Shown here in pieces: positions 7,951 to 24,049 of a stretch of DNA of 29,074 bases. Every line of letters starts with the position of its first letter. Positions within the stretch are counted from its first letter, which is position 1. The notes below the pieces were generated by a model, which was not told where the DNA came from, made no database searches, and worked only from the letters and a program-made list of their open reading frames with translations. Location: IMG/VR virus record IMGVR_UViG_3300032309_000500, positions 1 through 29,074 of that record. The stretch is one strand, 5' to 3'. A program made the position numbers and the translations under genes. Source of the stretch: a virus.

Positions 7951-8205
7951 ATGACAAAAGACTTTTATCAAATGTATGGTGTGGACACAGCAATGCATTT
8001 GTTGCGCCCTAGCGCAAAATGGGAAATTACAAACACTAAATTCACTCGGTGGGAAGACCCTCGCCCATGCCCTACATGGGAGGAAGTCCTTGAAACATTG
8101 GAAAAAATTAAGGCTTTTGAAGATGGTATAAAAACCATTTGGACTGAAGAGCAGATTGAGGCAATGACCAAACAGCAAGCAGTTCTTAAAAAGGCAGTTG
8201 GATGA
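7951..8205 (+). CDS. Small protein resembling tail-fibre assembly (XkdW-type) proteins
   Basis: 84 residues. The pattern LLRPSAKWEITNTKFTRWEDP, then PTWEEVLETLEKIKAFED, matches the layout of small phage proteins that follow fibre genes: a beta hairpin containing a Trp, a P-T-x-E-E-V turn, then a long helix. These are often annotated as tail-fibre assembly or XkdW-like proteins. The last 25 residues are a second helix. It follows the adhesin by two bases, so chaperoning the adhesin is the simplest guess. The ATG of the first oxygenase overlaps its stop. The assignment is by pattern only. Confidence 0.7.
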   Translation: MTKDFYQMYGVDTAMHLLRPSAKWEITNTKFTRWEDPRPCPTWEEVLETLEKIKAFEDGIKTIWTEEQIEAMTKQQAVLKKAVG

Positions 8206-8804
8206 TGCAGGTCATAAACTTATTCCCAACCGCTATTGGTTCATTCAGTCTTGGACGCGACATTACTACTGACGAGATGGACTTCATGTTGAATCAACCA
8301 CAAAAGAGCAACACTGGAAATACAACAAGCGAAAATAGAAACATTCTTGAACACGAAAAAATGGCTGACATCCGTGTTTTTATTCAAGAGTGTGTTGACA
8401 AATACTTTCAAGAAATTTTTCGCCCAAAATTTGATGTGAAGTTGCGTTTTACTCAAACATGGATGAATTATTCTGAGCCGGGGCAATTTCACCATAAACA
8501 CGAACACCCAAACTCTTTAATATCTGGATGTTTTTATCCGCAAGCAAATAAAGAATTAGACAAAATATTTTTTTTCAATGAAAAATATAAACAAATTTCA
8601 ATAGAGACTGAAGACTTTGGTCATTACAACTCGCCATCTTGGTGGCTTCCAGTTGGAACTGGTGATGTGTTAATTTTTCCATCGTCGTTAACTCACATGG
8701 TTCAAAATGTTGTGTCTGATAAAACTCGTGTAAGCCTTTCATTCAATACATTTCCAGTAGGCTATATCGGTAACGACAATACTTTGACTGGGTTGCACTT
8801 ATGA
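8202..8804 (+). CDS. 2OG-Fe(II) oxygenase (TIGR02466-type), first of three
   Basis: 200 residues. The N-terminus (QVINLFPTAIGSF) is the usual opening of the TIGR02466/2OG-FeII_Oxy_5 family. The metal site is in QFHHKHEHPNSLISGCFY (His 97, 98, 100 and 102), followed by a beta strand. The distal ligand is His165 in LTHMVQNV, with the 2OG-binding Arg176 in DKTRVSLSFN. DVLIFPSSLTH is also typical. Such enzymes hydroxylate proteins or small molecules using 2-oxoglutarate and O2; the substrate here is unknown. The ATG at 8202 overlaps the previous TGA; an ATG one codon later is also possible. Its place directly after the adhesin block suggests virion proteins as substrates (inference). Confidence 0.85.
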   Translation: MMQVINLFPTAIGSFSLGRDITTDEMDFMLNQPQKSNTGNTTSENRNILEHEKMADIRVFIQECVDKYFQEIFRPKFDVKLRFTQTWMNYSEPGQFHHKHEHPNSLISGCFYPQANKELDKIFFFNEKYKQISIETEDFGHYNSPSWWLPVGTGDVLIFPSSLTHMVQNVVSDKTRVSLSFNTFPVGYIGNDNTLTGLHL

Positions 8805-9361
8805 ACAAAGACCTTACATCGTATGTAAAAATTTATAAAGTGTTTGAACCTGAATTTTGCTCTGAAGTCGTTTTATCTTTAGGGCAGGCAGATTGGCGCG
8901 AGCATCAATTTAACATTGCTGGTACAAATGAATTTATTTCGTATGACAATGAATTATCAGTATCGCATTATGAGGCTCCAAAAAAACGTGAAATGACTGA
9001 ACGTCTATGGGGTGTAATTAAACAGTATTTAAATGAAATGGAATGTCAAGAATGGTTTAACTCATGGAGTGGTTATACGGCAATTCGTTTTAACAAATAC
9101 GATGTCAATACACAGATGAAAATTCATTGTGACCACATACATACCATATTTGATGGCGAACGCAAAGGCATACCCATATTAACAATTCTTGGTGCTTTGA
9201 ATGACGGCTACGAAGGTGGAGAACTTATTCTATGGCAAGACACTGAAATAAAGATTCCGCCCGGTCATGTGGCGGTGTTTCCCTCTAACTTTTTGTATCC
9301 ACATAAAGTAGAACCCGTGAAGAGCGGTGTTCGTCACTCTTATGTGTCTTGGGTTTGGTAA
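8801..9361 (+). CDS. 2OG-Fe(II) oxygenase, prolyl-4-hydroxylase-like, second of three
   Basis: 186 residues with a textbook double-stranded beta-helix site: His109-x-Asp111 (KIHCDHIH), then YEGGELILW, then GHVAVFPS, and finally His168 (YPHKVEPV) with Arg178 (GVRHSYVSWVW). The spacing of H168 and R178 is standard for the P4H/2OG-FeII_Oxy_3 family, so the enzyme should be active. Family members hydroxylate proline or other residues in proteins; the substrate is unknown. It belongs to a different subfamily from its two neighbours, so the cluster is not a simple tandem duplication. The ATG overlaps the preceding stop (ATGA). Confidence 0.9.
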   Translation: MNKDLTSYVKIYKVFEPEFCSEVVLSLGQADWREHQFNIAGTNEFISYDNELSVSHYEAPKKREMTERLWGVIKQYLNEMECQEWFNSWSGYTAIRFNKYDVNTQMKIHCDHIHTIFDGERKGIPILTILGALNDGYEGGELILWQDTEIKIPPGHVAVFPSNFLYPHKVEPVKSGVRHSYVSWVW

Positions 9362-9740: not shown

Positions 9741-10361
9741 ATGTCGTCCAACTTTGGTGCTAGTTATTATTTTGCTTCGGTGGTTTACACTGCCGAGGAG
9801 CCTCAGTTTTTGGATGAAGCCAAGACTGTTGTTGCGGACTACCTAAAGAACTCTGTAAAAACTTTAGACGGATTGCTCATACAAACAGGAAGTATGTTTG
9901 ATGGTCGCTTGGAAGGTTTAATTAAACACATAGCCCAGTCTGGTTGGAACATCTTGGACAGCCAAGGCTACGACATGAGCGACAAGACTACAAATCTCAT
10001 GGAGTTTTGGGCGCAAGAACATCAAAAACATTCAGGCATGGATGAGCATATTCACGGTGCAGGTGCGCAGTTGGTTGGGTTTTATTTCCTTGATTGTCCT
10101 GACGAAGAGGCGAGGATTGTTTTTTCAGACCCAAACCAAGCCAAGAAGCAGATTAACCTGCCACAGAAAGAAATTAGTCAGGTAACGCTTGGAACCACAA
10201 TGGTGAACTTCCAGCCCAAGCCGGGCCTTCTGATTATGACTAACGCTTGGGTTCCGCACACGTTTACAAGAAACAGGTCTGACAAGCCATTTACTTTCAT
10301 TCACTTCACAATTGGCGTAGAGAGGGCTTTGCCAACTCCACCACCTGCCGAGGTGATATGA
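9741..10361 (+). CDS. 2OG-Fe(II) oxygenase-like protein, third of three, missing the usual Arg
   Basis: 206 residues with the layout of the TIGR02466-type family: a long N-terminal part (SGWNILDSQGYDM), then the proximal metal motif DEHIHGAGAQ (His103, His105) followed by LVGFYFLDCP. GLLIMTNAWVPHTF follows with His173. In the position of the 2OG-binding Arg (DKTR in the first oxygenase) this protein has DKPF, followed by TFIHFTI. The fold call is good, but catalysis with 2OG is uncertain. It may use another Arg, or be a different or inactive enzyme. It starts directly after the previous stop, and its own stop overlaps the next start. Confidence 0.75.
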   Translation: MSSNFGASYYFASVVYTAEEPQFLDEAKTVVADYLKNSVKTLDGLLIQTGSMFDGRLEGLIKHIAQSGWNILDSQGYDMSDKTTNLMEFWAQEHQKHSGMDEHIHGAGAQLVGFYFLDCPDEEARIVFSDPNQAKKQINLPQKEISQVTLGTTMVNFQPKPGLLIMTNAWVPHTFTRNRSDKPFTFIHFTIGVERALPTPPPAEVI

Positions 10362-10594
10362 ACACATACAAAATCAGGTTTAACAAAAGCAGGGGCATGG
10401 AAGGTCGTGGAACGGTTGACCATGTGTGGCGTGTCTTTGAAAATGACAAAGAATTTTTGTTTAAAAATTTGGACATCACTGTGCCAGTCAAAAGCGAAAA
10501 AGATGTGAACGAAAATGATTACAACATTACTTGTAACGGTTACATGACAATTGACAGAGACACATCAACTGCAATAATTTCAACAGCAAAATGA
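10358..10594 (+). CDS. Small conserved phage protein (YKIRFNKSRG family)
   Basis: 78 residues. Conserved blocks are YKIRFNKSRGMEGRGTVDHV, WRVFENDKEFLFKNLDI and a C-terminal TIDRDTSTA. I recall this protein as common in cyanophages and other aquatic phages, with no assigned function. It appears to be a single small beta-rich domain with no Zn or catalytic motif. The ATG overlaps the preceding stop (ATGA at 10358), suggesting coupling to the third oxygenase. Confidence 0.8.
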   Translation: MNTYKIRFNKSRGMEGRGTVDHVWRVFENDKEFLFKNLDITVPVKSEKDVNENDYNITCNGYMTIDRDTSTAIISTAK

Positions 10595-12771: not shown

Positions 12772-14001
12772 ATGAGTTTTAACAGCCCCTTTACAGGCAA
12801 CGTCATTCAACCAACGGATGTCTCATACAACCGCATCATCTTAACTGCTGACTTGCAGTTAACTTGGCCTATCAACGGCACGACTGCTGATGACGCCGCC
12901 GCTCGTATCATGGAGGTGTCAACGCTCTCCACGGCAAACGAGTTGTGGATGCCCCCAGCCAATCAAGGCTCTGTTGGTCAAGACGCTTTGATTCGTAACG
13001 TCGGTGCTGTTGCAGTTACCGTCAAAGACTACACTGGCGCAAACACGATTGTCACGGTCGCCGCAGGCGAAGCCCAGTACATTTACATTACTGCCAACGC
13101 TACCACGGCGGGAACATGGGGCATCATTGCCTTTGGTATTGGCTCTTCTGGCGCTGACGCCGCTACCCTTGCTGGGTATGGTTTGCTGGCAATCGGTCAG
13201 ACGCTGAACCAAAGCCAACCTGTTACGACGTTCTCCTCCAGCTACACCGCGCTGACAACAGACCGCTCAAGTACCTATGTATGGACTGGCGGAGCGGGAA
13301 CATTGACTTTGACCCTTGCGTCTACGCTTGGCGACAATTGGTTCATGTTCGTGCGCAACAACGGCACAGGCGCTTTGACGGTGGCTGGCAGTGGTGGCAA
13401 CACCATCAACGGCTCTACGTCTATTGTTCTTCAACCTGCTGACTCTTGCATTATTGTTTGCAGTGGTTCAACTTTTTACACGGTGGGTTTGGGTCGTAAC
13501 ACCCAGTTTGCATTTACCCAACTGAGCAAGGTTGTGGCGTCTGGCTCGTACACCCTTACGGCTTCTGAAGCATCCAACGTAATTCAAAAATATACGGGAG
13601 TTTTGTCAGCCAACGTCACAATTGTTGTGCCTGCAACGGTTCAGGTTTACTACATCCTCAACGAAACTTCTGGTGCATACACCGTCACAATCACCACAGG
13701 TTCTGGCGCTACTGCTATTTTGACCGCAGGCAGTCAAGCCACATTGGTTTGTGATTCTGTAAACCTGTATAACGCTAACACTATTTTGGCTGGCTCTTCA
13801 AATATCAGTTTGAGCAACGGCTCTGTTGGCGCTCCGTCTTTGAATTTTTCATCAGAGACCACGACGGGTGTGTACCGCGCCGCTTCTGGTGAGTTCAACA
13901 TTGCAGTCCTTGGCGTGTTGCGTGCAACGGTTTCTGCCACTGGTTTGGCGGTTGTTGGTACGGGTAACTTTACAGGTGGTATTTCTGGCGGGACGTACTG
14001 A
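12772..14001 (+). CDS. Beta-rich fibre or tail-decoration protein
   Basis: 409 residues, rich in Thr, Ser, Gly, Val and Asn. The N-terminal section (FNSPFTGNVIQPTDVSYNRI) and following repeats of beta strands (LTLASTLGDNWFMFVRNNGT, GALTVAGSGGNTINGSTSIV) look like a tail-associated beta-helix or stacked sandwich. The C-terminus (TTGVYRAASGEFNIAVLG, then ending GGISGGTY) resembles the SGISGGTF end of the 809-residue fibre, so both may use the same final module. The TGATG overlap with the next start (14001) suggests coupling to the gp10-like protein. It is most likely structural; there are no enzyme motifs. Confidence 0.75.
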   Translation: MSFNSPFTGNVIQPTDVSYNRIILTADLQLTWPINGTTADDAAARIMEVSTLSTANELWMPPANQGSVGQDALIRNVGAVAVTVKDYTGANTIVTVAAGEAQYIYITANATTAGTWGIIAFGIGSSGADAATLAGYGLLAIGQTLNQSQPVTTFSSSYTALTTDRSSTYVWTGGAGTLTLTLASTLGDNWFMFVRNNGTGALTVAGSGGNTINGSTSIVLQPADSCIIVCSGSTFYTVGLGRNTQFAFTQLSKVVASGSYTLTASEASNVIQKYTGVLSANVTIVVPATVQVYYILNETSGAYTVTITTGSGATAILTAGSQATLVCDSVNLYNANTILAGSSNISLSNGSVGAPSLNFSSETTTGVYRAASGEFNIAVLGVLRATVSATGLAVVGTGNFTGGISGGTY

Positions 14002-16256
14002 TGGCAAAGAAAGTTTTTACCATCGACACGTTGCCCGGCGTACAGCGCGACGGCACTATCTTTGACATGAACTTTTACACGGACGCTCGTTGGGTTCGGT
14101 TCCAGCGTGGTCGTCCACGAAAAGTCGGTGGTTACCGCGCAATTGTTAGCAATGCAAACGGATACTCTCGTGGCATTTACGTCAACTCAGTAGATGGAAT
14201 TAACTCGGTTTTTAATGGGTACAACAACGGTCTTGAGGTTGTCAACATCAACAATCTTGGCATTGGTGCAGGTGTCAATCAATTTACCTTTACAGGTTTG
14301 ATTCTGACGCTCAATACACTTGTTGGTGGAACTCTATACACCAACGGCACTTACACGAATGTCACCCTGACTGGCGGTTCTGGCTCTGGCGCAAAAGCCA
14401 CTATTGTTGTGTCTGGCGGTTCAGTAACCACGGTGACGGTAACAACCCCCGGCAACAGGTATGTGGTTGGCAATACCTTGAGCGCGACAGCGGCAAGCAT
14501 CGGTGGAACTGGCAGTGGATTCTCAATCAAGGTGGCAACCATCAATGATGGGTTTACCGAGAGCAACTTGAACCTGTGGCAGTTTGACTCTACGTTTGAC
14601 GCTCAAGGTTCGGGCAATCAGTTGCTGTTGGCGCACCCCGGTCAGAACTTGGCGCAAATTGACCAAACCGTTAACACCCCTGTTTTGGCTGGCAACATCA
14701 ATGGCACTACTCTTTCCCCGCTCACAGACACTTCTGGTTCAACTCCAACAGGTGATGTAATTGAAGTTGCTGGTGGCGTATGCGTTTTGCACCCCTACGT
14801 CTTTGTGTATGGAGATAACGGTTTAATCAAGAATTGCGTTGCTGGAAACCCATTTGATTGGAACGGCGCTGACGCTAACGAGGTCAACGTAGCCTCCACA
14901 AAGATTGTCAAGGGGTTGCCAGTGCGAGGTGGCTCTAACGCCCCTTCAGGACTGTTCTGGGCGCTTGATTCACTGATTCGTGTGTCCTACACACCAACCA
15001 CCGTAACGGTCGCTGGAAGCCCCCAAACCTTCTACTGGCGCTATGACATCATCTCTAGCCAGTCCTCCATTCTTTCTAGCCAATGCGTCATTGAGTATGA
15101 CGGCATCTATTATTGGATTGGCGTTGACCGCTTCCTGATGTACAACGGCGTGGTCAAGGAAATCAAAAACACGTTCAATCAAAACTACTTTTTTGACAAC
15201 TTGAACTACGCGCAACAGCAAAAGGTTTTTGTCAACAAGGTTCCTCGCTTTGGAGAAATCTGGTGGTTCTTTCCTTCTGGCGATTCAGAAGAGTGCAACG
15301 ACTGCATCATCTATAACGTGCGAGAAGACTGTTGGTATGACGCAGGCGAGGCTTTAGGCGCTCGTCGCACTGCTGGTTACTTCTCTCAAGTGTTCCATTA
15401 CCCCATCAATGCGGGTGCAACATTGAGTGAAGAGGAAGTAATTTTCACGGCATCTATTTCAACAACCAACGCAAACGCTGTGATTACGATTGCGCCAAAC
15501 AACTTGGTTGCCGTGGGACAGCAAGTTGTTTCTACAAGCGTCCCGTCTGGTGCGCTGGTCAATTTAATTACGCCTAATTCAGCGTCGCCAACGGCAACGG
15601 GTTCTGCTGGCGCAAGCACTATTGTGGTCAGTAGCGCAACTGGTATTGTGCTGAATCAATCCGTGACTGGCACGGGCATTGGCACGGGCGCGGTGGTAAC
15701 CACCATTGTTGGAACAACCATCACGTTGTCCGTAGTTAACAGTGGCGCTGTATCAGGAGCCATGTCGTTTTCTGGTTTGAGTTTGACTTTGTCTGCAAAC
15801 GCAACGGCAACAGCGGTTGAGACCGCAAACTTTAATACTGTGGCTGGTCAAGTAATTTTGTGGCAACACGAAATTGGAACTGATGAAGTGATTGCTGATG
15901 AAGCTAACGCCATTGAAAGTTACTTCCAAACAAGTGACTTGGGTTTTGTGGCGGGTGGCCCTGCCCAGACCGCACCTGTTGGCGACAACTTTTGGGTAAA
16001 CCTAGAGCGGGTAGAGCCTGACTTTGTTCAGCAAGAAGAGATGACTTTCCAAGTTACTGGTCGTCCTTACGCTCAGTCTACTGATGTAACGTCAGAGCCT
16101 TATGTGTTTTCGCCAAGCACTGGCAAGATTGATATGCGCCAACAAAGGCGTGAGATACGTTTGCGTTTTAGTAGTAACGTGCAAGGTGGAAATTACGAAA
16201 TGGGTAAAGTTTTGCTCACAGTTACTTTGGGCGATTCCAGACCATACGGAAGCTAA
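14001..16256 (+). CDS. P22 gp10-like packaged-DNA stabilisation / tail hub protein with two inserted domains
   Basis: 751 residues. The start (FTIDTLPGVQRDGTIFDMNF, then DARWVRFQRGRPRKVGGYRA) and the body (ENPSGLFWALDSLIRV-type segment, TFYWRYDIISSQSSILSSQC, YDGIYYWIGVDRFLMYNG) follow the pattern of phage stabilisation proteins related to P22 gp10, which plug the portal channel. P22 gp10 is near 470 residues. The extra length is explained by two Gly/Thr/Val-rich inserts at about 99-181 (NGTYTNVTLTGGSGSGAKAT) and about 473-617 (GSAGASTIVVSSATGIVLNQ). The C-terminal 120 residues (IESYFQTSDLGF, then RREIRLRFSSN) return to the core. It is followed one base later by the 86-residue gene. Confidence 0.75.
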   Translation: MAKKVFTIDTLPGVQRDGTIFDMNFYTDARWVRFQRGRPRKVGGYRAIVSNANGYSRGIYVNSVDGINSVFNGYNNGLEVVNINNLGIGAGVNQFTFTGLILTLNTLVGGTLYTNGTYTNVTLTGGSGSGAKATIVVSGGSVTTVTVTTPGNRYVVGNTLSATAASIGGTGSGFSIKVATINDGFTESNLNLWQFDSTFDAQGSGNQLLLAHPGQNLAQIDQTVNTPVLAGNINGTTLSPLTDTSGSTPTGDVIEVAGGVCVLHPYVFVYGDNGLIKNCVAGNPFDWNGADANEVNVASTKIVKGLPVRGGSNAPSGLFWALDSLIRVSYTPTTVTVAGSPQTFYWRYDIISSQSSILSSQCVIEYDGIYYWIGVDRFLMYNGVVKEIKNTFNQNYFFDNLNYAQQQKVFVNKVPRFGEIWWFFPSGDSEECNDCIIYNVREDCWYDAGEALGARRTAGYFSQVFHYPINAGATLSEEEVIFTASISTTNANAVITIAPNNLVAVGQQVVSTSVPSGALVNLITPNSASPTATGSAGASTIVVSSATGIVLNQSVTGTGIGTGAVVTTIVGTTITLSVVNSGAVSGAMSFSGLSLTLSANATATAVETANFNTVAGQVILWQHEIGTDEVIADEANAIESYFQTSDLGFVAGGPAQTAPVGDNFWVNLERVEPDFVQQEEMTFQVTGRPYAQSTDVTSEPYVFSPSTGKIDMRQQRREIRLRFSSNVQGGNYEMGKVLLTVTLGDSRPYGS

Positions 16257-16257
16257 T

Positions 16258-16518
16258 ATGGCGCTTCCGCTCGTATACGACCCTCGGTATCACACATGGA
16301 ACTCTTGGTCGAGTTTGATGTGCGAGGCGTATGCGGCGCAACAGCTATCCATAAACACTCCCGAAGAGGAGTGGAAGAACTGGGCGTCGGGGTTAAAAGC
16401 CATCGACATTTTTGTGAACGAGGGGATACCCGGCCCCTACATCTACGAGAACTGGTACGACTGGGCGCAAGCACTTGTCGGAGCCGTCAACAAATCAACA
16501 CAGGAAACGGCAACATGA
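16258..16518 (+). CDS. 86-residue conserved phage protein
   Basis: Start ATG 16258 lies one base after the gp10-like stop. The product opens MALPLVYDPRYHTWNSWSSL, continues with CEAYAAQQL, EEEWKNWASGLKAIDIF and IPGPYIYENWYDWAQALVGA. It has six Trp residues and several Tyr residues, so it is a compact aromatic helical protein. I recall similar small proteins beside tail genes of aquatic phages, with no known function. Its stop overlaps the ACP start (ATGA), so the two are probably co-translated. It may be structural or belong to the ACP unit; the sequence does not decide. Confidence 0.75.
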   Translation: MALPLVYDPRYHTWNSWSSLMCEAYAAQQLSINTPEEEWKNWASGLKAIDIFVNEGIPGPYIYENWYDWAQALVGAVNKSTQETAT

Positions 16519-16796
16519 ACTTCATTGAAATTTTTAACTATGTGGCAAAGATAGCAAGACCTGCCCACGCCAAGCAATCTATTGCTGAGGCGATGGAAGA
16601 CGAGTTCCAAGACATTGGTTTGGACAGCCTAGATGGGTTGGTCATGCTGATGTACTTTGACGAACTTTATGGCATTGATGATGCAATCAGCAAAGATTGG
16701 ACGCCCAAATCCGTTCAGGAACTCCATGACCTTGTGATGGCTCACAAAACCAAAGAGCCAGCCTCTATGGAAGAAGTCGTCGAGGTGTGCAAATGA
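16515..16796 (+). CDS. Acyl carrier protein (phage-encoded)
   Basis: 93 residues from ATG 16515. The 4'-phosphopantetheine site is Ser38 in FQDIGLDSLDGLVMLMYFDE, matching the ACP consensus (D/E)-x-G-x-DSLD followed by an acidic-hydrophobic helix II. A helix III/IV region (WTPKSVQELHDLVMAH) follows, like the TPKSVQEL-type ends of ACPs. The last 15 residues are an extra acidic tail. Helix II differs from E. coli AcpP: the acidic residue five after the Ser (AcpP Glu41) is Val43 here, while Asp40, Asp49 and Glu50 keep charge. A host AcpS-type transferase would have to load it, as none is visible. It overlaps the ketosynthase start (ATGA), so it is probably that enzyme's partner. Confidence 0.88.
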   Translation: MNFIEIFNYVAKIARPAHAKQSIAEAMEDEFQDIGLDSLDGLVMLMYFDELYGIDDAISKDWTPKSVQELHDLVMAHKTKEPASMEEVVEVCK

Positions 16797-17902
16797 TTTA
16801 CCTCACGCACTACCGCACCGCCTGCACCAAAGAAGTTGAACTCTTTGATGACATCATCTACCCCCAAAAGGTGAACTGGTTTCCAGACACCTACAACCGC
16901 ACAAAGTCTGGTCTGGTCTACGTCCCCCACAAGCTGGCGGAGAAAGTCCTTGACCCTGAGTTACTTACCCACTTGCGCGAGAACCCCGTAGGCAAGACAG
17001 CATTTATCCTTGCTGGTGGCAACGCACACTTTGCAGGCATTGGACAGCGCCCGTATGACTCTCGCCTGACCTATACCTACAAGTTCTTGCCATTCACGTT
17101 GACGCAAGTCTATGCTGGCAGGATTGCCCAGTCCTTCGGTGATATGGATATGGTTACCACCGACGCTTCTGCCTGCGCATCTAGCCTCAAGGTAATGATG
17201 GATGTGCAAAACCTTATTCAGTTTTACGATTTTGACCGCGTCATTGTTCTAACGGTTGAGGACGGAGTATCAAATGCTGTGCTGGAGTTTTTTGGCGACT
17301 CCAAGGCTGTTTTGACTGAAAAACAAGAGGAGGAGGGCATCAAGCCATCCGCTTTCGATTCGGTTAACTTTGGGTTTCGTATTGGTCAGGGAGCGGCTTT
17401 GGCTGTATTTGAATCCCGTCAGGCTGTTGTCAAGCAACACATCATGCCCCATGCCCGTCTGGTTGGGGCTTACAGCGCCTCTGAGCGCTCTACAAACGCC
17501 ATCGGGCAGTGTGAGGATGGGGAAGGCTTTACTAAAGCTATGGCTGGTGCAATGCACTATGGCAATATATCCCCAGATAAGATTAAAATAGTCAAAACCC
17601 ACGGAACTGGAACAGCGTCCAACAACAAGGCTGAAAAAAACGCCTTGACCCAAACGCTACAAGACTTCGTTGCAACCTCGTATAAGCAGAAAATTGGTCA
17701 TACGATGGGTAGCAGTGGACTTCTTGAAACGCTACTTTTACTGCAAGACATCAAAGCTGGATTTGTCCCTGCGATTGAGAACCGAACAGAAAGCGATTCG
17801 GTATTCCTTTCGGAATCGACAACTTCGCCTGATGGCTTGATAATGAGTCTGGCGGCAGGAATGGGAAACATCTACTCCGCCGCAATTTTTAAGGGGATGT
17901 GA
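16793..17902 (+). CDS. Beta-ketoacyl-ACP synthase-like condensing enzyme
   Basis: 369 residues from ATG 16793 (CGAGG upstream; the GTG at 16787 would add two residues). The thiolase-fold triad is complete: Cys128 in TTDASACASSLKV, His270 in VKTHGTGTASNNKAEKNAL (FabF-type HGTxT-x3-KAE) and His303 in QKIGHTMGSSGLLETLLLL (FabF-type GHxxGxxG). The gene is about 40 residues shorter than FabF. The N-terminus lacks the usual VVTGxGxxxxxG strand and has an unrelated segment (TACTKEVELFDDIIYPQKVN). The final glycine loop reads AAGMGNIYSA instead of GFGGxN. It should form a C-C bond between an ACP-bound or CoA-bound acyl group and malonyl-ACP; substrate and product are unknown. TGATG links it to the next gene. 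Confidence 0.85.
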   Translation: MIYLTHYRTACTKEVELFDDIIYPQKVNWFPDTYNRTKSGLVYVPHKLAEKVLDPELLTHLRENPVGKTAFILAGGNAHFAGIGQRPYDSRLTYTYKFLPFTLTQVYAGRIAQSFGDMDMVTTDASACASSLKVMMDVQNLIQFYDFDRVIVLTVEDGVSNAVLEFFGDSKAVLTEKQEEEGIKPSAFDSVNFGFRIGQGAALAVFESRQAVVKQHIMPHARLVGAYSASERSTNAIGQCEDGEGFTKAMAGAMHYGNISPDKIKIVKTHGTGTASNNKAEKNALTQTLQDFVATSYKQKIGHTMGSSGLLETLLLLQDIKAGFVPAIENRTESDSVFLSESTTSPDGLIMSLAAGMGNIYSAAIFKGM

Positions 17903-18345
17903 TGTTAGTTGACAGCAAGGAAAAAGAACTGGGCGTAGAGGCAATCATGATGATTGCCGCTCAGGAGACCAAGTCACCTCACCCAGCCTCCTCGGTTTAC
18001 GCGGCGATGGTGAAAGAGATGAATATGCCCGGCACATCCATCTTTCGCGAAGGTAACACTCTTTTTATCATCCATGTTGCAGAAGGTCGCACTGGAATTT
18101 TCCGCGCATTAAACGCCGACACCGCCCGTAACTACTTAGAGAACTCTTACACTTTTATTCAAGCCGCGTACAAGATGGGGTTTGACACACTTGTAAGCGA
18201 GTTTGAAGACCCAACAATTTTCAACATTTTTAAAGCCATTTCACGCAACCCTCCGCAAGAAGGCATGGGTTACCGCGCAGAACGAACCAAAACAGGTTTC
18301 CGCGTTACGGTGAAACTTGGGCCAAAACGGGCTGAAAGGGAATAA
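17902..18345 (+). CDS. Conserved phage protein of unknown function downstream of the ketosynthase
   Basis: 147 residues; ATG 17902 sits in a TGATG overlap, five bases after AAGGGG. Residues 7-40 are helical (EKELGVEAIMMIAAQETKSP), followed by strands (TSIFREGNTLFIIHVAEGRT, then GIFRALNADTARNYLENSYT) and a C-terminal mixed part (TGFRVTVKLGPKRAERE). The FREGNTLFIIH and FRALNADTARNYLENS segments look like a fold seen in other phage structural regions; an acyltransferase-like (GNAT) fold is conceivable but no motif proves it. It could act with the ACP pair, since the genes are coupled, or belong to the virion set. Confidence 0.7.
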   Translation: MLVDSKEKELGVEAIMMIAAQETKSPHPASSVYAAMVKEMNMPGTSIFREGNTLFIIHVAEGRTGIFRALNADTARNYLENSYTFIQAAYKMGFDTLVSEFEDPTIFNIFKAISRNPPQEGMGYRAERTKTGFRVTVKLGPKRAERE

Positions 18346-18347
18346 TT

Positions 18348-20039
18348 ATGGGAGCAGTAGCAGACTTTGTTGAAGACACTTTTGACTTTGTTGGCGACGT
18401 CTTTGAGGCTGTTGGTGACGCTGTTGAGGACGTTGTTGAATTTGTTGGCGATGCTGTTGAAAAGGTTGGCGACGTTGTTCAGGCAGTTCTTGACGACCCG
18501 CTTCCTGTTTTGCTTGCTGTTGCTGGGGCTTCTTTTGGTATCCCCCCTTATATCACGTCAGGTGTTGTTACCGCCGCACGCGGAGGTGACCTTGAAGACA
18601 TTGCCTTATCAATGGGTACTTCGTATCTTGGCTCTTCTGCTGGTGCTGGTATTACTAACTCCATTTCGTCTACTGTGTCCTCAACATTTATTGAGGCAGG
18701 AGTAAACGAAACATTTGCTGAAATTGCCAGCGACTCAATCACCAAAGGTTTGGTCAACGGAACTATTGCCGAAGTGAGGGGCGGTGATTTTGAAGATGGT
18801 TTTGCTGGAGGTTTTACTGGCGGACTGGTTGCTGGTGGCGTTGGAGAAGTTGCCAGTTACGTCAAACCAGACATTGTTGAGTTTGCTATGGATAGTGGCT
18901 TTGATTTGCGTGATGCCAATTCCTTATTCAACGCTGGTGTAAGAGCGGTCACCGCTGGCGTAACTTCTGAGGTAACTGGTCGAGGTGACTTTGCTACTTC
19001 ATTTACCAACAGCGCAATTGGTTCTGGCGTTGACTATGGAATGCGTGAAGTCAATAAAACAATTGACGAACAATTTAACACCGCCGCGACTGGTTGGAAC
19101 GAAACAAGCAATGACGACAAAAAGGTTGACACTACCGTTGTCGGCGCAGGCATTCCTAACGACCTTGTTACTGAAGTCAAAATATCTGATATAGGTGTAG
19201 ATAACGACGCAGGAACATTTGATGTTGCAAGCGTATTTGCTGAACCCCAAGATACAAGCAACGTCAACAATACATCTTCTTCTTACACTGGCGAAACAGC
19301 AACATCTAACATTTCCGTCCTGCCAGAAACGCAGTTGGCTGAAGCGCCTAAAGCTGAAACCATTTATGATTTTGCTGACACGACTGTTGCAGAGACACCA
19401 GTATCTAGCGACAGTGTTTTAGCTGAAGCCACCAACCTTCCTGAGAGCGTAATTAACATTGCTGATTCTCTGCCAGAAGATACTTCTCCTGATGTTTCAA
19501 CAGAACCTGTAGGTGGCTTAAATGTTTTGGCTGAGACAACTCCAATAGTTGATTTAGACACTACCACCCCTGCGGTTGTGTCTGAAGCGCCAATTGCTCA
19601 GGATTTGCTGTCTAACAATTTAACGCAAGACAAAACAGAAGAGCAACCCACGGGTGGTTTGAATGCGGTTGCATCACAAACTGCTGTGGACAAAATGTCT
19701 CCGTCTTTAAACCTCAAGCCAACTGACTTTACAAAGCCAGTGGTTGCGACCGTTGGTAATTTAATTAAGCAGACACTGACTCAGCCAAAACGCCCAACAA
19801 ACCGCCCTACGCGACCCGCTGGAGGCTTGCAGTTGGCTAGTCCAAAGCTGATGACCAAGAAACCCGTAACGCCACCACCTCCTCGAATGGATGTGGCAAA
19901 GTTGATTCCAATTCAAAAAGCGCCGTTTGTTGGAAAACCATTAAAAGCTAGCCCTCCAAAAACTTTGGCAGGCAACGCAAACTTAACTCCTGTAAGCAAT
20001 ATTGCAGGTTTGACTTCATTGGTTAAGAAGACAGGATAA
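18348..20039 (+). CDS. Large internal virion-like protein with amphipathic N-terminal repeats
   Basis: 563 residues. Residues 7-50 are heptad repeats of the form (F/A)VGD(V/A)(F/V)E, an acidic amphipathic helix. About 54-240 is glycine- and alanine-rich with hydrophobic stretches (PVLLAVAGASFGIPPYITSG, EDGFAGGFTGGLVAGGVGEV), as in ejection proteins that insert into membranes. The C-terminal half is a disordered Thr/Pro/Glu-rich linker with GGLNVLAE / GGLNAVAS units, then a basic Pro-rich end (PKTLAGNANL, LTSLVKKTG). It leads a run of five large genes and is followed by another start three bases later. A DNA-ejection or internal virion role is likely; the family is not identified. Confidence 0.65.
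   Translation: MGAVADFVEDTFDFVGDVFEAVGDAVEDVVEFVGDAVEKVGDVVQAVLDDPLPVLLAVAGASFGIPPYITSGVVTAARGGDLEDIALSMGTSYLGSSAGAGITNSISSTVSSTFIEAGVNETFAEIASDSITKGLVNGTIAEVRGGDFEDGFAGGFTGGLVAGGVGEVASYVKPDIVEFAMDSGFDLRDANSLFNAGVRAVTAGVTSEVTGRGDFATSFTNSAIGSGVDYGMREVNKTIDEQFNTAATGWNETSNDDKKVDTTVVGAGIPNDLVTEVKISDIGVDNDAGTFDVASVFAEPQDTSNVNNTSSSYTGETATSNISVLPETQLAEAPKAETIYDFADTTVAETPVSSDSVLAEATNLPESVINIADSLPEDTSPDVSTEPVGGLNVLAETTPIVDLDTTTPAVVSEAPIAQDLLSNNLTQDKTEEQPTGGLNAVASQTAVDKMSPSLNLKPTDFTKPVVATVGNLIKQTLTQPKRPTNRPTRPAGGLQLASPKLMTKKPVTPPPPRMDVAKLIPIQKAPFVGKPLKASPPKTLAGNANLTPVSNIAGLTSLVKKTG
18366..18497 (+). repeat. Heptad repeat coding for (F/A)VGD(V/A)(F/V)E
   Basis: Six near-copies of a 21-base unit encode the acidic heptad, one interrupted by a four-codon DVVE insert. 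The unit is seen at DNA level as repeated GTTGGCGAC and GCTGTTGA. Confidence 0.7.
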
Positions 20040-20042
20040 GAC

Positions 20043-23036
20043 ATGGCTATTCTAAAAAAACGCACATCAAGCAAACAACTCCCAGAGGCAAGGGGTCTTG
20101 ACCGCGCACCGTTGGACAGTGTTATTCGAGACCTTAATGACCGTCCTTCATTGACTGGTCGCACTTCTGATTCACTGACTTCAACTGATGGCTCTTTTGC
20201 ACCAACCAATAGACCAACTTTGTCAACAGGGGAAACAACAAAGCCAACGCTGACGTCTACAACTAAGCCTGTAACAACAAAACCAGCCATAACTTCAAAA
20301 CCATCCGTAACTACAAAACCAATAACCACAAAGCCATCGGTTACGACTAAGCCTGCGGTCACCACAAAACCAACAACCACAACCAAACCTTCAATTACGA
20401 CAAAACCAACAACAACAACCAAGCCTTCCATTACAACAAAGACGCCAACGACTCCGACAACAAAAACACCTATTACATCGGTTGTAAAAAAACCAACTGT
20501 TACGACTCCAAAGACAAACACAAACTCCACCACCAATAAGGTGGTAAACGCGCTTACGGGCGCGGCAATTGGCGCTGGCACAAAACTTATCATTGACAAG
20601 ATTACGGGCAAGCCTGTTATTAAGTCTGGCACTGGCACAACAGTACCTAAAGCGCCTATTACTGGAACACCCAAAGCACCTATTACTGGAACCCCCAAAG
20701 CGCCCGTCACTGGTACACCTAAATCCCCCGCTGGCGGAACAAAAACGCCACCTGCTGGTGGCACAAAGACGCCTCCTGCTGGCGGTACAAAAACACCACC
20801 TACCAGCGTGGTGAAACCGCCTGCTGGCGGTGGTAGCCTGATTACTGCGGACGAGGCGTACAAAGGCACACTTGCTGATGAATCTTTGGGTTTGCCTGAA
20901 GGGTCTATTGACAACGGGGATGGAACATATACGTCTGACGGTACAACTTTTGATATGCAGACGGGTATGCCTCTGTACCGCGAAAACGCGGAAGGTGGTG
21001 TGGATGTTGTGACGGACAACAACGACGGGACGTACACCATTGGCAACACAACCTACAGCATGGACAATGACTCTGTTTTGTACACCACTGATGCTGATGG
21101 AAATATTACCGTTGCTGGTAGCGATAGCGGTGGAGGTGGAGAAACAAATGTTGTTGGCGAAGGAGACGATGGTTCTTCTGAAGAGCAATATTATGAAGAC
21201 GACAGTGGCAACATTTACACAATGAACGACGATGGTAGCTACGACTTATATCGTGCCGCTGAAGTAGATGAGGATATTTCCGCAGAGGATGCTGGCTTAT
21301 TTGGCACTTCTCCAGTAGAAGAAGAAGAACAATATTACGAAGATGATAGTGGCAACACTTACATCTTGAATGACGATGGTGAATACGATTTGTACCGCGC
21401 CGCAGAAGTGCCAGAAGACATTGTTGAAGAAGACTATGGTCTATTTGATACTTACCCAGAAGAAGAATTTGTGTACGAGCCAGACGAGCGATATTCAACT
21501 TTTGAAGATGACGGTGACGAATACTACGATTTCAAAAGTGGGGGCTTGACTACTATGATGAAAAACGGCGGAGTTCCTCGTTTTGAAGATGGCGGAGTGG
21601 CGTATATGCCCTATGGCGCTGTAGACAACAACGACGGCACATTCACAATAGACAACGACGTCTTTGATATGGAGACTGGTGACCCTCTGTACAGCATGAA
21701 TGACGACGGCGAAATCATTTACGTTGAGCCATCCGCTATAAGCGGTTATGTGGACAACGAAGATGGAACGTACACGATGGATGGCATAACCTACGACATC
21801 GAAACAGATATGCCGTTGTACGCAGATAGCGAAAGTGGCGTTGACATTGCAACAGACAACGGCGATGGTACTTACACCATAGGAAATCAAACCTATGACA
21901 TGGAGACCAACGAGCCTTTGTACACTACCAACCCAACAACGCGCTCACTAACCGTAAACCCTACCGCAATTTCTAACGTAGGCAGTGGAGCTACTAACAC
22001 CAAAAAAGACGTCTACCAAACTGACGCAGAAGGAAATGTCTTTAAAAACGGCGTCTTCTATCGTGCGCCAGACATTCCTAATGCTCCAACAAGTTTTCTT
22101 GACTCTGACTTTTTGTCGACATTGACTAATGCATTAGGCACAACCGCAGGCGCGGCTGGTGCTGGCGCTTTGGTTGCCTCGTTGCTTGGCAGTGACTTTA
22201 CGGGTGGTGGTAGCGGCGCTCAGAACCAAGGCGTGGATATGTCGCAGGTTGGTCTCATCAACCCACGCACGACCGACTTTGGGATTGGCCCAACAAACTT
22301 TGTGGGCTACGACCAGTACGGTACGGATGCGGACGACTACACACCAAACGAAGAGTTGTTGCGCAATTTGAATGCACCGGGCTACAACCCCGTGCGTGAA
22401 GGCGATTACGGCTACGAAGAAGTTCCCGCAGAAGAAGAAGAAGTTCCAGAAATGGCTTCTGGTGGCTTGTCTTCCATGTCAACGCCTGTAGCCTCTTACT
22501 ACACCTTTGGTCAACCCGCTGACATCTTGGCAAACTTGGGGATGCGTCCGCAACCCCCAATGAACCCGCCTGAGATGATGCCTCAAGTTGGTCAGCAAAA
22601 GCCTGCCCAGCAAATGCAACAGCAAGGGTTGCCACAACAGATGCCACCTCAAATGGCACAGCAGGCTCCGCAAGGTATGCCCCAGCAGGGCATGATGCCT
22701 CAACAGCAGGGTATGCCTCCTCCTATGCGTAAGGGTGGCTTGCCCCACGTTTCTAACGTGCCATTGACTCAAGGCCGCATGGATTTCCGCAAGGGCGCGG
22801 CTGTGCATGGCGCAGGCGATGGACAGTCTGATGACATTCCAGCTATGCTGGCGGATGGTGAATATGTAATTGACGCTGAGACCGTAGCGCAAATTGGCAA
22901 CGGCTCAACTAAGGCTGGCGCACAGGCTTTGGATAAGTTCCGCGAGGGTATCCGCGCTCACAAGCGCTCTGCCCCTGTCAACAAGATTCCACCTAAAACC
23001 AAGGCGTTGACCTCGTATCTCAAAGGAGCAAGATAA
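20043..23036 (+). CDS. Giant multi-repeat virion protein (997 residues)
   Basis: The layout is unusual. Residues 1-64 are basic and polar; 65-143 are TTKP-type repeats; 168-191 form a hydrophobic patch (NALTGAAIGAGTKLIIDKI). Then come PKAPITGT (202-226) and AGGTKTPP (230-253) repeats. Residues 289-627 hold five copies of a DN-x-DGTYT...DMxTxxPLY unit and two copies of a YYEDDSGN unit, all strongly acidic. After that come a GGLTTMMKNGGVPRFEDGGV segment, more hydrophobic stretches (AGALVASLLGSDFTGG), a Gln/Pro/Met-rich region, and a conserved C-terminal 100 residues (VHGAGDGQSDDIPAML, then EYVIDAETVAQIGNG, AHKRSAPVNKIPPK). That C-terminal segment I recall from other phage virion proteins. AGGATAAGAC is the ribosome site. 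Function is not assigned; probably an internal virion or tail component. Confidence 0.7.
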   Translation: MAILKKRTSSKQLPEARGLDRAPLDSVIRDLNDRPSLTGRTSDSLTSTDGSFAPTNRPTLSTGETTKPTLTSTTKPVTTKPAITSKPSVTTKPITTKPSVTTKPAVTTKPTTTTKPSITTKPTTTTKPSITTKTPTTPTTKTPITSVVKKPTVTTPKTNTNSTTNKVVNALTGAAIGAGTKLIIDKITGKPVIKSGTGTTVPKAPITGTPKAPITGTPKAPVTGTPKSPAGGTKTPPAGGTKTPPAGGTKTPPTSVVKPPAGGGSLITADEAYKGTLADESLGLPEGSIDNGDGTYTSDGTTFDMQTGMPLYRENAEGGVDVVTDNNDGTYTIGNTTYSMDNDSVLYTTDADGNITVAGSDSGGGGETNVVGEGDDGSSEEQYYEDDSGNIYTMNDDGSYDLYRAAEVDEDISAEDAGLFGTSPVEEEEQYYEDDSGNTYILNDDGEYDLYRAAEVPEDIVEEDYGLFDTYPEEEFVYEPDERYSTFEDDGDEYYDFKSGGLTTMMKNGGVPRFEDGGVAYMPYGAVDNNDGTFTIDNDVFDMETGDPLYSMNDDGEIIYVEPSAISGYVDNEDGTYTMDGITYDIETDMPLYADSESGVDIATDNGDGTYTIGNQTYDMETNEPLYTTNPTTRSLTVNPTAISNVGSGATNTKKDVYQTDAEGNVFKNGVFYRAPDIPNAPTSFLDSDFLSTLTNALGTTAGAAGAGALVASLLGSDFTGGGSGAQNQGVDMSQVGLINPRTTDFGIGPTNFVGYDQYGTDADDYTPNEELLRNLNAPGYNPVREGDYGYEEVPAEEEEVPEMASGGLSSMSTPVASYYTFGQPADILANLGMRPQPPMNPPEMMPQVGQQKPAQQMQQQGLPQQMPPQMAQQAPQGMPQQGMMPQQQGMPPPMRKGGLPHVSNVPLTQGRMDFRKGAAVHGAGDGQSDDIPAMLADGEYVIDAETVAQIGNGSTKAGAQALDKFREGIRAHKRSAPVNKIPPKTKALTSYLKGAR
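20235..20471 (+). repeat. TTKP / SITTKP coding repeat
   Basis: About twelve units of the T-T-K-P type, with A/C-rich codons (ACAACAAAACC-like). The product is a mucin-like disordered linker. The DNA is a slippage-prone low-complexity tract. Confidence 0.85.
20646..20801 (+). repeat. PKAPITGT and AGGTKTPP coding repeats
   Basis: Three copies of a PKAP(I/V)TGT unit (about 20646-20720) are followed by three copies of AGGTKTPP (about 20730-20801). These are coding tandem repeats. Confidence 0.8.
20907..21923 (+). repeat. Acidic DN-x-DGTYT repeat array
   Basis: Five units of about 23-24 residues at 20907-20978, 21015-21083, 21624-21692, 21750-21821 and 21855-21923 share DN(G/N/E)DGT(Y/F)T and a (D/S)M...PLY-like end. 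Two longer units with YYEDDSGN lie at 21180-21302 and 21324-21446. The D-x-N/D-x-D-G loop recalls calcium-binding loops; this is not proved. Confidence 0.8.
23023..23028 (+). promoter_or_regulatory. Shine-Dalgarno AAGGAG before the 337-residue gene
   Basis: AAGGAG is seven bases before ATG 23036, which overlaps the preceding TAA (TAATG). Confidence 0.6.
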
Positions 23037-24049
23037 TGGCTGGCTTATTTCAGGGTGACCCACTACCCGCGATTACCAAGACGACGGAAGCCCAACAGTC
23101 GGCTCCAGAGTTTTACACGAACTACCTGCAAGACATTGCCAACTTAGGTCAGAACGCTGTCCAGCAGGGCGGTATTGCTGGCTTCAGTCCTTTGCAACAG
23201 CAAGCCTTTCAGATGGTTCCAGACGTTGCGTTTGCTGGCGCTGGGTCTATGGGTGCATCATCCCAATTATTGGGCGAGGCAGGCGTTACAACCGTTCCTG
23301 ACGTCATTGCTGACTACATGAACCCCTATCAGTCCGCTGTGGTGGATGAGATGGGTCGACTGACTCAGCGTAACATTCAAGAAAACATTTTGCCAAACCT
23401 TGGCGCGGCGGCGGTTGGCTCTGGTCAGTTTGGTTCACGTCGTCAGTCTCAAGCCACTGGCAACGCTTTGCGTGACATCCAAGCGGATTTGCTTGGCAAG
23501 CAAATGCAAGCGCTTCAGCAAGGCTACACGACCGCTGGAACGCAGGCTCAAACTGATTTGTCTCGCGCACTGAGTGCTGGTCAAGCCTTTGAGAACTTAG
23601 GTCAAGCCCAACAGGGTATGGGTCTGGCTGGTCTGAAGACCATGTCTGACTACGGCGCTCAACAGCAGGCACAAGGTCAGAAGTTGCTTGACTACCCAAT
23701 GGCTCAAACTCAACAGTTTGCCAAGTTGCTTCAAGGTTATCAAATGCCTATGGGTACAACCACGCAACAAGTTGGCTCAGAGGGTTACTCCAACAGTCCG
23801 CTGTCTCAAATTGCTGGCTTGGGTTCTTTGGTTGCTTCTTTGTTTCCCCAGCAATCTGCAACTCAAGATTTGCAAAATCAACTTCTTCAAAAACAGATTG
23901 CTTCTATAAAAAGCGCCAAAGGTGGCGCAATCAAAAAAGCAAACGGTGGCGGGGTGCGTCTTGCTGATGGCGGAATGGCTCCTTCTGGCGCAGAATATCA
24001 CGATGGCAAAGGTAATTTTTACGATGCCGATGGCTACTTAGTGGGGTAA
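23036..24049 (+). CDS. Internal virion / ejection-type protein (NPY...FGSRR family)
   Basis: 337 residues. Typical segments are GIAGFSPLQQQAFQMVPD, DYMNPYQSAVVDEMGRLTQR and GSGQFGSRRQSQATGNALRD, which I recall from a widespread family of phage internal or structural proteins. It is rich in Gln, Ala and Gly and largely helical, suggesting an extended assembly. The C-terminus has three GG motifs (AKGGAIKKANGGG, RLADGGMAP) and a D-x-D-G end (YDADGYLVG). It follows the 997-residue gene with a TAATG overlap. Confidence 0.75.
   Translation: MAGLFQGDPLPAITKTTEAQQSAPEFYTNYLQDIANLGQNAVQQGGIAGFSPLQQQAFQMVPDVAFAGAGSMGASSQLLGEAGVTTVPDVIADYMNPYQSAVVDEMGRLTQRNIQENILPNLGAAAVGSGQFGSRRQSQATGNALRDIQADLLGKQMQALQQGYTTAGTQAQTDLSRALSAGQAFENLGQAQQGMGLAGLKTMSDYGAQQQAQGQKLLDYPMAQTQQFAKLLQGYQMPMGTTTQQVGSEGYSNSPLSQIAGLGSLVASLFPQQSATQDLQNQLLQKQIASIKSAKGGAIKKANGGGVRLADGGMAPSGAEYHDGKGNFYDADGYLVG

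Follow-up and report, generated by a model that had tools for sequence, protein, structure and literature searches.

A fabG–acpP–fabF cluster has been reported in prophages of Rhodobacteraceae (roseobacters) (PMC8224337), and an acyl carrier protein (ACP) alone has been reported as a phage auxiliary metabolic gene (PMC11705849, PMC5463345), stand-alone ACPs being encoded, e.g., by Alteromonas phage R22Y and Erythrobacter phage R6L (PHROG 5934). The locus described here, in a viral contig of 29,074 bases (the whole stretch analyzed, below called the window), resembles the former in that an ACP and a beta-ketoacyl synthase (KS) occur together on a phage element, and the latter in that the ACP is phage-encoded. 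It differs from the prophages, which include fabG, in the absence of FabG from 27 records of the present group, in the position of the pair inside a virion gene cluster, and in the phage group itself; while the reports on the R22Y and R6L proteins mention no KS, the present ACP sits beside one. No paper on a phage cassette consisting only of ACP and KS was found in our literature search, the roseobacter cluster being the nearest case described; this absence is not proof for the whole literature.

The same block as in the window is present in the circular 57-kb genome of Caudoviricetes sp. ctpbd312 from Manatee Spring (MW202545), with identities to the window of 45.6% for the ACP, 62.6% for the KS, and 35.9% for the product of the third gene, a 147-aa protein with a predicted GNAT fold. 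In the annotation of that record, the KS is a 3-oxoacyl-ACP synthase with a later start, the ACP is hypothetical, and no role is proposed. FabF and FabB (KAS I/II) share with the phage KS the thiolase fold, the Cys–His–His–Lys site, and both Pfam domains; the phage protein, about 15–21% identical to them in Foldseek alignments, has a shorter N-terminus and a C-terminal loop AAGMGN where FabF has GFGG, and, unlike FabF and FabB, is encoded by a phage and adjoins its own ACP.

For the third gene, an analogy is offered by the RTX toxin acyltransferases, such as ApxIC, whose fold is GNAT-like but without CoA-binding elements, and whose donor is acyl-ACP (PMC8339906). A GNAT-like fold without CoA elements is common to HlyC, ApxIC, and the 147-aa protein, but the latter has no sequence match to them and no conserved catalytic His, and its possible substrate is a phage protein rather than a toxin.

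Results

Organization of the locus

The genes of the block and its flanks are all on the plus strand. The ACP gene (93 aa; 16515..16796) and the KS gene (369 aa; 16793..17902) overlap by four bases, ATGA (16793..16796), that hold the stop of the former and the start of the latter; from this overlap, which is kept at 135 of 139 loci, we infer that the two genes may be translationally coupled. Upstream lie a 751-aa virion structural (“stabilization”-type) protein (14001..16256), identified as the syntenic anchor on this side, and a conserved 86-aa virion-cluster protein of unknown function (16258..16518), which is present in sister phages lacking the ACP–KS pair and delimits the insertion on the left. 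Downstream, the 147-aa protein (17902..18345), whose structure model predicts a GNAT acyltransferase fold and whose gene is usually the third in the block, is followed by a 563-aa probable ejection-type protein with an amphipathic/hydrophobic N-terminus (18348..20039), by a 997-aa protein whose C-terminus is homologous to gp066c of a Caulobacter phage and which is the downstream syntenic anchor (20043..23036), and by a DNA ejection protein (23036..24049; PHROG 4287). The two open reading frames, their ATGA overlap, and the location of the pair among virion genes had all been described in the first-pass annotation, and each was recovered.

The 997-aa protein contains a long low-complexity region of TTKP/TGTPKAP-type repeats. 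Elsewhere in the window, three 2OG-Fe(II) oxygenase-like genes (8202–8804, 8801–9361, and 9741–10361, with Pfam domains 2OG-FeII_Oxy_5, Oxy_3, and Oxy_5, respectively) are clustered between tail and lysis genes.

Ketoacyl synthase and acyl carrier protein

Both Pfam domains were found in the KS above the cut-off of 20.8 bits (Ketoacyl-synt_C, 55.6 bits; ketoacyl-synt, 36.1 bits), and FabF structures were matched by its sequence with E = 7e-22 and by the family profile with E = 1.3e-28. The structure model (pLDDT 91.6, pTM 0.92) has a FabF-like thiolase fold; when it was compared with the PDB using Foldseek, the best E-value was 3e-23, and the best 50 of the 1061 matches at E <= 1e-3 were all ketosynthases. 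In the alignment to FabF, Cys128 corresponds to the nucleophile, His270 and His303 to the active-site histidines, and Lys298 to the active-site lysine, and all four residues are kept in 141 of 141 full-length relatives. By sequence and by model, the product of 16793–17902 is a KAS I/II-type ketoacyl synthase, apparently active. The fabF models are nearest to it by sequence, yet it is distant from all named fatty-acid subfamilies and fails the curated cut-off of the FabF equivalog model TIGR03150 (109.4 vs. 493.75 bits), and a divergent KS with the AAGMGN loop may have a function different from ordinary elongation. Its nearest phage family is PHROG 35856 (“unknown function”; 3.4e-41), and this match indicates that PHROG 35856 is related to the present ketoacyl synthase family.

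The ACP is recognized less readily when taken singly: the window protein scores 12.9 bits with Pfam PP-binding, under the cut-off of 20.8, and matches the PHROG acyl carrier protein at 3e-4. The family profile, built from 45 diverse relatives, reaches solved ACPs in the PDB at E = 5e-5, and residues D37, S38, and D40 are invariant in 147 of 147 relatives, the phosphopantetheine-site motif being DSL in 143 of them and DSM in four. With the support of this profile, the product of 16515–16796 is assigned as a putative acyl carrier protein. The earlier description of a 93-residue ACP with a DSLD motif at Ser38, next to a condensing enzyme with Cys128, His270, and His303, thus holds in both parts, with Lys298 added; of the checks proposed with it, the structure model of the KS showed the thiolase fold, while the Pfam search bore out the KS and not the ACP.

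Breadth, linkage, and selection

A scan with the window KS yielded 206 viral relatives, and a scan with a divergent KS, 66 loci, two sets that may overlap. The KS was found on over 200 viral contigs, and the ACP adjoins it wherever room exists (at 147 of the 148 loci in the first collection, the remaining locus being cut by the contig end); the pairing as observed is far beyond chance. The median dN/dS among close relatives is 0.084 for the ACP and 0.077 for the KS, both genes being under purifying selection.

Among GenBank phages, only MW202545 was found to carry a close KS. In a search of 84,980 species, represented by one genome each, the best KS match (59% identity) was on a 37.6-kb contig of a Balneolaceae MAG (JAGYJQ010000016.1), where the KS is accompanied by the ACP, GNAT-fold, and ejection-type genes; with these block genes present, this is probably a phage contig, and its binning possibly hints at a Balneolaceae host. 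The cellular relatives that come next are at most 31% identical.

The position of the pair varies. Four contigs (L104, L108, L109, L114) have the ACP and KS outside the usual gene context and with no GNAT-fold gene adjoining; in L104, the neighbors are an SNF2-like helicase gene upstream and, downstream, a sigma-like and a terminase-small-subunit-like gene. L245, L246, and L248 are close relatives of this group. Recombination-like junctions were observed near the border of the KS and the GNAT-fold gene and near the ACP start (L037 vs. L074; L039 vs. L080), and in these comparisons the GNAT-fold gene and the ejection gene seem to have been exchanged together.

Partner enzymes

The first-pass annotation had seen no other enzymes of fatty-acid synthesis near the pair, and this observation extends to 27 records of 40–66 kb, including one circular 57-kb genome: AcpS (PF01648), FabD/AT (PF00698), FabG (PF13561), and FabA/FabZ (PF07977) were each found in none of them, the bacterial control genomes being positive in the same searches. 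The searches covered these four families. Ketoacyl-synt_C matched exactly once in each of the 27 records, so that there is no chain-length-factor partner. For the families tested, no full FAS or PKS set was found elsewhere in these records, and the pair would therefore probably depend on the fatty-acid machinery of the host.

Insertion site

In Caulobacter phages RW, RLK, KcrB, and GB2A, assigned to the proposed Riverwalkvirus (PMC11053796), gp070c, gp069c, gp068c, and gp067c match window ORFs 12134, 12772, 14001, and 16258, in the same order, and gp066c of the Riverwalk phages matches the C-terminus of window ORF 20043. Between gp067c and gp066c of these four phages, the ACP, the KS, and the 147-aa protein are all absent, and the 563-aa ejection-type protein has no separate counterpart. 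They thus share the gene order of the window on both sides, as far as the 86-aa protein on the left and starting with the 997-aa protein on the right, and represent a natural empty site. When the structural anchor was used for a scan, loci with enough downstream sequence comprised 44 with all three genes missing (43 contigs and KcrB), eight with all three, and two with the 147-aa protein alone; whole-record searches of those anchor-scan records that were tested found the KS absent, as at the locus. In the tree of the anchor protein (56 rows), which has modest support at some nodes and an unreliable long branch (L098), KS-bearing phages group together, with L324, which has only the 147-aa protein, nested inside, and with L326, which has none of the three genes, next to a subset of them. 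Such a topology is compatible with one gain of the block followed by one or two losses.

Predicted GNAT-fold protein and probable ejection-type protein

The model of the 147-aa protein (pLDDT 93.5) has a strand and helix order that fits GNAT, and Foldseek gives a probability of 1.00 with TM of about 0.5–0.6, the best match being the acyltransferase domain of NcdE (E = 1.4e-4). The CoA pyrophosphate loop (R/Q-x-x-G-x-G/A) is missing from the conserved columns, the loop after strand 4 reading ALNADTARN, and no His is invariant across 41 sequences. Pfam and PHROG scans and a PDB sequence search returned nothing significant for this protein, with no RtxC-type Pfam match.

In 80 of its 80 closest relatives, the KS is directly upstream. 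Two 53-kb records, L323 and L324, keep the GNAT-fold gene, at about 9,890–10,550, without any KS; they are 98% identical in the structural anchor protein and 63% in the GNAT-fold protein. Relaxed selection after the loss of ACP and KS was considered for this divergence and rejected: similar jumps between KS-positive relatives run into the ejection gene, so that recombination explains it equally well. The GNAT-fold gene was likewise rejected as an obligate third partner, since it occurs without the KS in L323 and L324, and the pair occurs without it adjoining in the L104 group. GNAT-like proteins similar to the 147-aa protein are widespread in uncultured phages. The protein encoded next has an amphipathic/hydrophobic start in nearly all cases, and the product of 18348–20039 is probably an ejection-type protein; tblastn with its N-terminus gave no match in phage records.

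Discussion

The conserved active-site residues and the predicted fold of the KS suggest that the ACP–KS pair is very probably catalytic. As to its use, we tentatively favor a two-gene phage module that would feed host type II fatty-acid synthesis and have a role in the lipid or acyl pool. In such a scheme, Ser38 of the phage ACP would be modified with phosphopantetheine by host AcpS, malonyl would be supplied by host FabD, and Cys128 of the phage KS would be primed by a host acyl-ACP or acyl-CoA; the KS would then carry out the condensation to beta-ketoacyl-ACP on the phage carrier, as its conserved residues and fold imply, and the product would be handled by host FabG, FabZ, and FabI, since the phage records contain no FabG- or FabA/FabZ-type enzymes. 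The net effect would be the addition of an elongation step of the phage's own choosing, and its end use would most likely be a changed acyl-ACP pool for the membrane lipids of the infected cell, a suggestion that we put forward with reserve. In favor of the module are also the low dN/dS of both genes, the near-constant adjacency of ACP and KS, the lack of the tested partner enzymes in the 27 records, and the phage precedents cited above. The occurrence of the pair in the helicase/terminase context, with no GNAT-fold neighbor, fits a self-contained metabolic unit. On the other hand, the usual position in the virion and ejection cluster is also compatible with a virion role, and the reductive steps would require host enzymes that accept the phage ACP.

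A virion role had been among the possibilities raised at the outset, as the transfer of an acyl chain to a virion protein, and the GNAT-fold gene, lying directly before that of the ejection-type protein, provides a candidate enzyme for it, although the link is not obligate. In this view, and by analogy with the RTX toxin acyltransferases, an acyl-ACP made by the pair for this purpose would be the substrate of the GNAT-fold protein, which would move the acyl group onto a phage protein; the most plausible acceptor is the amphipathic ejection-type protein encoded next, which would thereby be helped into the host membrane. The confidently predicted GNAT fold, the lack after strand 4 of a canonical CoA loop, a feature also reported for ApxIC (PMC8339906), the invariable KS upstream of the closest relatives, the amphipathic/hydrophobic start of the following protein, and the absence of the entire block from sister phages all agree with this. 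However, the GNAT-fold gene persists without the KS in L323 and L324, partial contigs with the pair alone have no match to it, recombination among related phages can part it from the KS, swapping it together with the ejection genes, the invariant His of RtxC-like enzymes is missing, and comparable proteins are common in uncultured phages. We consider acyl transfer to a phage protein unlikely, though not far-fetched, and less likely still the narrower proposal that the whole ACP–KS–GNAT–ejection block is a fatty-acylation pathway, in which the ejected virion protein, once acylated, would enter or span the host membrane as the DNA is injected. It is improbable that the pair independently produces a small compound of beta-keto or polyketide type, in the manner of a minimal type II PKS, e.g., a signal or lysis-timing molecule: Foldseek ranks the actinorhodin KS (1tqy_A) first and the type II PKS complex AntDE:AntF second, and the records encode neither a ketoreductase nor a dehydratase of the families tested, but FabF structures come immediately next with marginal rank differences, a chain-length factor is absent, there being one KS per record, and the sequence is closest to fabF models.

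A non-catalytic or regulatory use, with the ACP as a decoy or binding partner disturbing ACP-dependent regulation in the host and the KS as its holder, would accord with the reported phage ACPs that have no KS (PMC11705849, PMC5463345), but a mere binding partner would not be expected to keep the catalytic residues of the KS and the serine of the ACP without exception, which makes this quite improbable. The chance that a bacterial fab fragment reached a phage contig by host contamination or mis-assembly is negligible. Some records in phage collections do hold a distant host-like fabF, and a relative occurs in the Balneolaceae MAG; against this, hundreds of viral contigs have conserved phage flanks, the circular MW202545 has the same block, and the next cellular relatives are remote. 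Host contamination as the source of the ACP–KS pair is thus ruled out by the conserved phage context. The distant host-like fabF genes occur in records named Listeria, Enterococcus, Staphylococcus, or Acinetobacter phage, and probably represent bacterial DNA in phage assemblies.

The fatty-acid genes known from phages have for the most part been ACPs on their own or fab fragments resembling those of hosts. The ACP–KS pair described here, divergent and apparently active, is kept by purifying selection as a strongly conserved block in a large group of uncultured phages, and occupies a precise site that is vacant in the Caulobacter isolates; these empty-site relatives, which infect the laboratory strain Caulobacter CB15, could serve for comparison. 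The pair points to phage control of acyl-chain synthesis in the host, or else to acyl modification of phage proteins.
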